Part shown: positions 5,465 through 54,314 of the stretch, piece after piece
How positions within the stretch are numbered: the stretch's first letter is position 1
Layout of the letters: each line of letters starts with the position of its first letter
DNA from: Skeletonema tropicum
Lineage: Eukaryota; Bacillariophyta; Thalassiosirophyceae; Thalassiosirales; Thalassiosiraceae
Reading direction: 5' to 3'
Assembly: GCA_037178625.1 (NCBI GenBank)
Contig: CM074129.1
Location: forward strand, 3,100,001-3,164,000
Length of the DNA: 64,000 nucleotides
The notes under the pieces: generated by a model
Seen by the model: the letters and a program-made list of their open reading frames with translations, nothing else
The model's database searches: none
Told to the model about the DNA's origin: nothing
Translations under genes and position numbers: made by a program

Positions 5465-5570
5465 GAATGTGACGCGTACGGCAGCCCATGGTCGCGGGTT
5501 CGACCCCCGTCTGGTGCACTCCTGTGCACTTGTAACTCAGTGGTCAGAGTGTGGGTCTTATGACACGTTC
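5465..5570 (+). tRNA. Circularly permuted tRNA-Ile(UAU) gene
   Basis: The 3' half lies first: 5483-5518 holds A38, anticodon 3' strand GCCCA (5484-5488), variable loop, T stem GCGGG/CCCGT with loop TTCGACC (5494-5510), acceptor 3' strand CTGGTGC (5511-5517) and discriminator A. After a 7-nt spacer (5519-5525) the 5' half follows at 5526-5562: acceptor GCACTTG, TA, D stem ACTC/GAGT with an AGTGGTCA loop, anticodon strand TGGGT and loop CTTATG (anticodon TAT). TGGGT pairs with the upstream GCCCA (one G-U). The acceptor pairs 6 of 7 (one G-U, one U-U mismatch). A box and B box are near consensus but in reversed order. Outside the halves, 5465-5471 (GAATGTG) pairs with 5564-5570 (CACGTTC) over 7 bp, and 5475-5478 with 5559-5562, giving the bulge-helix-bulge-like fold used by tRNA splicing endonuclease in permuted tRNA precursors. 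Confidence 0.82.
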
Positions 5571-5581
5571 CTTTTGTTTTT
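5571..5581 (+). terminator. Pol III terminator (T runs) after permuted tRNA
   Basis: CTTTTGTTTTT directly follows the last base of the trailer helix (5570). Two runs of four or more T on the sense strand are the normal RNA polymerase III stop signal. It lies just past the 5' half, as expected if the transcript runs leader, 3' half, 5' half, trailer. Confidence 0.65.
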
Positions 5582-53558: not shown

Positions 53559-54314
53559 TTAGATTCCTTGTGGAAGGAAGTATCCGGCCTTGGCAGCATA
53601 TTCGGGAGCGGCGAAAGCAGGGCTGAGCTGGGAAACGATGTCAGTTCCAGAGTTGGCAGCCTGGCAGATAAGACCGAAGGCACCAAGCATAGCAAGACGG
53701 CAGTGCTTGATCTCTTGGAGTTGCTTGTCAGCATATTCCTCAGGAGAGTAGTTGAGGCCAAATGGGTTGTAAGCTCCGGGGTAGCCGATTCCAATGTCTC
53801 CGACAACACGGTTGGATCCCTGCTCCTTGATGCGGATGATACGTTGGTATTCAATCCATGCCATACCTCCAACAATTTGGTAGATAGCGGCTTGGGGAAC
53901 ACTGGTAAGAGCTTCGAAGGGGTTAAGGTTTGAGTAAGCATCGACACCTCCGAAGTCCTCAGATCCGGGCAAAGTTCCGAAGAGTCCGGGCCAGATGAAT
54001 CCAACAACAGCAAGCTGGGCGATACGGCCGTGAGCAAGCTCGGCCTCACGAAGCCACTCAAGGTCGCTCATGAAGTTTCCCTCTTGGTAGAGAGGGTTGT
54101 TGAAGGAGGCAGCAGGGACGGTGGAGAAACCAATGGGGTCGAAACCAACATCTCCAGGAAGAGATCCATCGAGAGTATCGGGGGAGGATCCGAAAGGAAG
54201 AGCCTTAGTTCCCTCAATCCATTGAACATTAAGAGCGGTGGATGCCTTGTCGGTAGGGGCAGGAGCGAAGGCGGCGGCAGAGCCAAGGGTGGCGGCGACA
54301 ATAGCGAGCTTCAT
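53559..54314 (-). CDS. Fucoxanthin chlorophyll a/c-binding (LHC family) protein
   Basis: 251 residues, intronless, ATG 54314. MKLAIVAATLGSAAAFAPAP is the canonical diatom bipartite presequence with the AAAFAP cleavage motif. LREAELAHGRIAQLAVVGFI is the first and EIKHCRLAMLGAFGLICQAA the third LHC membrane helix, each with the Glu/Arg and His/Asn chlorophyll ligands (His-Cys-Arg instead of Asn/His-Gly-Arg in helix 3 is unusual). GSLPGDVGFDPIGFS precedes helix 1 as in all LHCs. A middle helix (PQAAIYQIVGGMAWIEYQRI) is present. It binds fucoxanthin and chlorophylls in the thylakoid for light harvesting; the REAELAHGR form leans to an Lhcr/photosystem I-type member. Codon use is strongly biased (ATC, GTC, AAG, GGA), fitting high expression. 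Confidence 0.93.
   Translation of the reverse strand: MKLAIVAATLGSAAAFAPAPTDKASTALNVQWIEGTKALPFGSSPDTLDGSLPGDVGFDPIGFSTVPAASFNNPLYQEGNFMSDLEWLREAELAHGRIAQLAVVGFIWPGLFGTLPGSEDFGGVDAYSNLNPFEALTSVPQAAIYQIVGGMAWIEYQRIIRIKEQGSNRVVGDIGIGYPGAYNPFGLNYSPEEYADKQLQEIKHCRLAMLGAFGLICQAANSGTDIVSQLSPAFAAPEYAAKAGYFLPQGI

Follow-up and report, generated by a model that had tools for sequence, protein, structure and literature searches.

A predicted circularly permuted tRNA-Ile(UAU) gene and a permuted tRNA-Arg(ACG) family in the nuclear genome of the diatom Skeletonema tropicum

Permuted tRNA genes are uncommon and have been described chiefly in red and green algae. Table 1 of a 2014 review has 34 of them, found in one red alga, in green algae, in the nucleomorph of a chlorarachniophyte and in one archaeon; Ile(UAU), Arg(ACG) and diatoms are all absent from that table (PMC3978253). 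According to the review, the splicing endonuclease presumably cleaves the algal precursor at a BHB motif, and ligation then yields a circle. The circle has been detected, and RNase P and tRNase Z are the probable enzymes of its opening (PMC3978253). Permuted tRNA genes in the Amorphochlora nucleomorph were reported later than this review. The genome studied here, that of the diatom Skeletonema tropicum, appears to hold permuted tRNA genes of this known kind in a new lineage.

A close likeness in layout is to the red alga C. merolae, where the 3′ half also precedes the 5′ half, the spacer is short (7-74 bp, compared with 7 and 5 nt in S. tropicum), a T stretch follows the 5′ half and a BHB lies at the junction, for which we see a candidate site here; a junction at 37/38 corresponds to its type II (PMC3978253). 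C. merolae differs in that it also uses junctions 20/21, 50/51 and 59/60, and in that its own Ile(UAU) gene carries three introns (PMC9602550) and, like Arg(ACG), is not among the permuted genes of Table 1, whereas S. tropicum has one permuted family of five copies. In Ostreococcus, Micromonas and the Bigelowiella natans nucleomorph, 20 of the 21 listed genes are type II with an hBH motif (PMC3978253), and the S. tropicum genes resemble these in having a putative central helix and no shared outer helix. In those organisms, however, mostly Ser, Leu, Cys and iMet genes are permuted (PMC3978253), while S. tropicum is a diatom host with the genes on host nuclear chromosomes. The green alga Auxenochlorella, which is not a diatom, likewise has tRNA genes with reverse-ordered halves, found after a first tRNAscan-SE set was incomplete (PMC12633428). 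Among stramenopiles, a permuted RNA is on record in the mitochondrial 5S rRNA of brown algae, although this is another RNA in an organelle genome (cited in PMC11528492). We found no report of a permuted tRNA in a diatom in the mostly non-subscription literature covered on permuted tRNAs in diatoms, stramenopiles and algae; the original prediction knew of none either. Two scans of viral contigs and one of genome contigs for relatives elsewhere were empty, as expected, because these collections should hold no diatoms.

tRNAscan-SE is not made for permuted genes. The tRNAs of the published S. tropicum genome (78.78 Mb; 23 chromosomes of 1558-5738 kb) were predicted with tRNAscan-SE (PMC11032307). 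We searched a 78.39-Mb assembly of 125 contigs; the window, that is the whole stretch of 64,000 nucleotides that was analysed, lies on its contig C3. In the window as it stands, neither ARAGORN nor Rfam at gathering scores calls a tRNA at the Ile locus. When the two halves are swapped back, ARAGORN reports tRNA-Ile(tat) with an acceptor stem of 6/7 pairs (mismatch T6.T67, one G.U), a D stem of 4, an anticodon stem of 5 (one G.U) and a T stem of 5 (one G.U), and its anticodon arm aligns closely with that of the Ile(AAT) gene of the same genome. The 3′ half lies 5′ of the 5′ half on the same strand, with a short spacer between them, and a T stretch follows the 5′ half and is absent between the halves; the first TTTT begins ten bases into the trailer. 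Together the halves restore a complete cloverleaf including the conserved positions, both with ARAGORN on the rotated sequence and with the covariance model described below, and energy folding of the precursor agrees only in part. The boundaries of the halves and the spacer, the cloverleaf obtained by swapping and the Pol III T runs had all been given correctly in the original prediction (Table 1). As a modelled structure, the permuted arrangement is real.

Table 1. Coordinates of the permuted tRNA genes and their parts in the window and on contigs C6 and C7.
Feature	Position	Strand	Content or score	Basis
3′ half of tRNA-Ile(UAU), positions 38-73 (A38-A73)	5483-5518	+	Anticodon 3′ strand, variable loop, T arm (B box), acceptor 3′ strand, discriminator A73	Direct reading, ARAGORN, model R1
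Intervening spacer (A73/G1)	5519-5525	+	7 nt, CTCCTGT, T run absent	
5′ half of tRNA-Ile(UAU), positions 1-37 (G1-G37)	5526-5562	+	Acceptor 5′ strand, D arm (A box), anticodon 5′ strand, anticodon TAT 5559-5561, G37	Direct reading, ARAGORN, model R1
Leader of predicted precursor	5465-5482	+		Folding and chance estimates
Trailer with Pol III-type T runs	5563-5581	+	TTTT 5572-5575, TTTTT 5577-5581	
Permuted tRNA-Arg(ACG)	C6:1366915-1382397 (L144, L145)		Three intact copies, 49.1-49.2 bits, and one truncated	
Permuted tRNA-Arg(ACG)	C7:2206225-2219992 (L153, L154)		Two intact copies, 49.3 and 48.9 bits	
Truncated Arg(ACG) copy	L144 4047-4120, C6		30.8 bits	Model R1

The original prediction had named a tRNA covariance model as a check. 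To obtain such a model (R1), we took 12 ordinary tRNAs from the genome, split each at 37/38 and exchanged the halves in silico around random spacers of 7-28 nt; the permuted Ile gene was kept out of the training set to avoid circularity. On the 64-kb window R1 matches the Ile gene with 59.2 bits (E 1.9e-19), and the sole other match up to E 10 reaches 6.8 bits. Among the ordinary tRNA loci given to R1, the top score is 34.2 bits, at a tRNA-Ala locus. With a descriptor kept loose on purpose, the window yields a single place, the Ile gene, and its minus strand none; simulated order-1 Markov sequence, scanned on one strand, yields one place in 40 Mb. We therefore consider it extremely unlikely that the locus is an assembly artefact or a chance arrangement of tRNA-like repeats: the genome does have B-box-bearing repeat families, but the repeat loci examined stay at or below about 17 bits with R1, the loose descriptor matches only once in the 40 simulated Mb, and five permuted Arg copies lie on two contigs with flanks that differ between C6 and C7.

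This Arg(ACG) family, found with R1, comprises five intact copies and one truncated copy on contigs C6 and C7. ARAGORN calls the rotated sequence tRNA-Arg(acg); the D stem has 3 bp, and the acceptor includes the pair G1.U72. The intact copies have spacers of 5 nt from which a T run is absent. A DNA search of the genome with Arg(ACG) returns the six places and nowhere else. The loci given to R1 came from a B-box pattern, with 208 places in the genome compared to 92 for the reversed control; 95 of the 208 were examined (52+20+23, the last 23 partly hand-chosen), and R1 was run on the loci of these 95 and on loci L001-L030. Beyond the permuted Ile and Arg genes, no locus scanned exceeds 34.2 bits. 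Since R1 covered chosen loci and not the whole genome, the count of permuted genes is a lower bound.

The family also allows a view on selection, which the Ile gene, being a single copy, cannot give. The halves of the five intact Arg copies are identical (36/36 and 36/36, or 72/72 nt), whereas ungapped comparison between the C6 and C7 copies shows only 2/5 positions shared in the spacer, 12-14/40 in the leader and 10-16/35 in the trailer; between the two C7 copies the values are 3/5, 22/40 and 12/35. The three C6 copies are close duplicates (38-40/40 in the leader, with two identical over the whole stretch compared) and thus do not count as three independent witnesses. Constant halves next to differing spacers, leaders and trailers are expected under selection on the mature tRNA. 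The pattern is what a processed, working gene would be predicted to show, and gene conversion limited to the halves seems a less likely cause.

The question of whether these genes could be in use is closely tied to the presence of normally ordered counterparts. A DNA search of the 78.4-Mb genome gave no second place similar to either Ile half. An intronless normal-order Ile(UAU) pattern matched 10 places (34 in the reversed control), 0/10 of them a tRNA by ARAGORN, and a pattern from D loop to anticodon matched 54 (control 88), the permuted Ile gene included; ARAGORN called a tRNA at none of the 43 examined, and the remaining 11 carry matched words identical to examined ones. A second tRNA-Ile(UAU) gene, the presence of which the original prediction had proposed to check, was thus found neither by the DNA search nor by the two patterns, which reach intronless or similar genes and are not exhaustive. 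The recurring word GGTCAGAGTGCCGAACTTATG was considered as a second Ile(UAU) candidate and rejected, the single copy inspected (L070) having no tRNA around it. For Arg(ACG), the intronless normal-order pattern matched 7 candidate places versus 15 in the control. ARAGORN called 31 anticodon kinds (one of them, Val(aac), a single doubtful call), and neither Ile(UAU) nor Arg(ACG) is among them when the permuted loci and L052-L106 are left out. As 95 of the 208 B-box places were covered, an unusual or intron-bearing normal gene could be missed.

The codons in question are used: in the 16 window ORFs taken as coding, with 6884 codons, ATA occurs 80 times, CGT 77 times and CGC 48 times. Given this use of AUA, CGU and CGC, and with no normal Ile(UAU) or Arg(ACG) gene found in these non-exhaustive searches, the permuted genes probably supply both tRNAs. 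Under standard decoding CGU and CGC need Arg(ACG), while AUA could in part be read by Ile(IAU), so that the need for a working permuted gene is better supported in the case of Arg than in that of Ile. Among the ORFs of the window, the one at 53559-54314 on the minus strand looks like a fucoxanthin chlorophyll a/c protein, which we take to fit a diatom. For an anthranilate-synthase-like ORF of the window, the 120 matches listed out of 8000 include Skeletonema potamos (95% over 80% of the query) and Cyclotella atomus (84% over 96%), and several others among them are better.

It could be argued that the Ile locus is a dead relic, left functionless when a tandem pair of tRNA-Ile(UAU) genes lost its outer halves by deletion and a 3′ and a 5′ half came to adjoin. 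Such a deletion is a natural origin for permuted genes in general, the truncated Arg(ACG) copy shows that loci of this type do decay, and the Ile gene is a single copy with one acceptor mismatch. We nevertheless regard a relic as unlikely: the arms are intact and score 59 bits with a model trained without the gene, the DNA and pattern searches gave no normal Ile(UAU) gene although ATA codons are used, and the sister Arg(ACG) family is constrained in its halves only. The original proposal, a nuclear gene for tRNA-Ile(UAU) that is circularly permuted and belongs to a diatom, is instead supported as the best reading by the R1 match, by the DNA and pattern searches that gave no second or normally ordered copy, and by the second permuted family. 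Judging from the sequence, we put at roughly 90% the probability that 5483-5562 works in the S. tropicum nucleus as a tRNA-Ile(UAU) gene in circularly permuted form, with a type II junction (37/38). The genome would then have two or more permuted families, this one and tRNA-Arg(ACG), the latter with five intact copies.

The sequences that flank the halves were analysed for pairing. In the Ile gene, GAATGTG (5465-5471) can form a 7-bp outer helix with CACGTTC (5564-5570), and an inner 4-bp helix joins 5475-5478 to 5559-5562. The original prediction had placed the cut at 37/38 from this pairing of leader and trailer; it does exist, but as evidence it is weaker than was thought, since 7.6% of random flank pairs (0.076) yield a 7-bp outer helix and folding gives no such helix common to the Arg copies. 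When the flanks are 20/14 nt long, the minimum-energy fold contains the leader/trailer helix; when they are 32/16 nt long, it does not. We thus dropped the outer helix as main evidence, its chance value being too high. Pairing of leader and trailer is also what one would see if the halves were separate transcripts spliced in trans, and archaeal split tRNAs likewise have leaders and trailers that pair. We think such a split tRNA very unlikely, as the 7 nt (Ile) or 5 nt (Arg) between the halves hardly leave room for a promoter, and the spacers are without a T run while T runs lie 3′ of the 5′ half.

A permuted gene read as one transcript would need a cleavage site at 37/38, and here the leader may contribute. 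In the Ile gene, leader TACG (5477-5480, positions -6 to -3 before A38) can form 3/4 pairs with C32-A35 in a central helix flanked by 3-nt bulges on either side. The same helix has 4/4 pairs in the C6 Arg copies, 3/4 in the C7 copies and 1/4 in the truncated copy. An A-I pair could be formed by the G at -3 (5480) and C32 (5557), which we take to be its usual position; a G stands at -3 opposite C32 in 6/6 intact permuted genes, and in the truncated Arg copy as well. By chance, at least 3/4 pairs would be reached with a probability of 0.14 for Ile and 0.083 for Arg, and 4/4 for Arg with 0.0086. The cut at 37/38 in the original prediction therefore has the right geometry and a central helix of 3/4 pairs, but at a chance value of 0.14 the support from the Ile gene is modest. 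Taken together, the leader/anticodon-loop pairing modestly supports a putative hBH-type site at 37/38, as in green algae (PMC3978253).

In energy folding, the unmodified precursors fall short of a full cloverleaf. Without flanks, the Arg precursors show 5/5 anticodon-stem pairs together with the T arm and the acceptor stem, but with leader and trailer added they keep 0/5 of the anticodon-stem pairs. The Ile precursor keeps its anticodon stem at all three lengths and forms 5/7 acceptor pairs, with 0/5 in the T arm, where an alternative pairing is preferred; its acceptor is extended into the spacer by A5518-T5525 and C5519-G5524, leaving a 4-nt loop. This mixed outcome leaves the odds given above unchanged, because they rest on the covariance model and on the pattern of selection.

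We suggest the following course of maturation. Pol III would make a single transcript of leader, 3′ half, spacer, 5′ half and trailer, ending at the T run. This RNA would adopt a cloverleaf in which the anticodon loop is open and the acceptor ends are linked by the spacer, a form predicted by the covariance model and ARAGORN and in part by energy folding. The tRNA splicing endonuclease may then cut after G37 and before A38 at the BHB-like site built from leader, anticodon loop and trailer, for which the geometry is present, and a ligase, with RtcB as one candidate, would join 37 to 38 into an RNA circle. By analogy with the published algal pathway, RNase P and tRNase Z would excise the spacer, CCA would be added, and the mature tRNA-Ile(UAU) would read AUA. 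Candidates for part of this machinery are encoded in the genome. Two proteins match the endonuclease family PF01974 (67.5 and 30.8 bits); the first also matches EndA-like and Sen2 PDB chains, while the second has no PDB match and as a protein is barely above the cut-off (27.4 vs 27 bits). One RtcB ligase gene was found (562 bits). PF09511 (Trl1-type ligase) gave no match in the genome, a result that decides nothing as the control was silent too. As for transcription signals, TTTT lies within 25 nt 3′ of 6/6 intact permuted genes and of 48/64 ordinary tRNAs, and a TATA-like word occurs at -60..-16 in 4/6 permuted and 14/64 ordinary genes; none was found in this interval at the Ile gene.

The diatom plastid is of red-algal origin. 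From the sequences, we consider it likely that the diatom nucleus depends wholly on permuted genes, matured via RNA circles, for AUA (Ile) and CGU/CGC (Arg), and that the Arg family, while under selection, has expanded to its five copies on two chromosomes. In that case no permuted tRNA set would have been described before from stramenopiles, nor from the host nucleus of any alga whose plastid is secondary; the set would either have an independent origin or have been acquired from the red-algal endosymbiont. The Arg(ACG) family was not part of the original prediction and makes the case much firmer than a single gene would. Permuted tRNAs in a diatom would add a distant and ecologically very important lineage to those with such genes, would suggest that standard tRNA finders miss permuted genes, and would offer a case where permuted genes seem to be the sole source of a major isoacceptor, Arg(ACG). 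The several Arg copies permit evolutionary tests that are impossible with single-copy genes, and the persistence and origin of permuted genes become testable across sequenced diatoms.

Some other tRNA-like or B-box-bearing sequences were noted among the loci examined. A dispersed repeat around GAGGCACCGGGTTCGATCCCCGGGGATGGC, at L141, L146, L155, L183 and L184 (C5, C6, C7, C18 and C10), has B-box-like stretches ~57 nt apart; by eye it is tRNA-like, perhaps SINE-like. Another dispersed repeat, around TTTTGGCCGTAGCTAGGGGGTTCGATTCCTTCGTACAGAGGCCGTC, has a chance-like B box (L120, L122-L125, L134-L136, L142). Finally, Gly-like tRNA stretches that look degenerate by eye and are uncalled by ARAGORN occur at L173 (C11:290002-290214) and L180 (C15:609903-610115).
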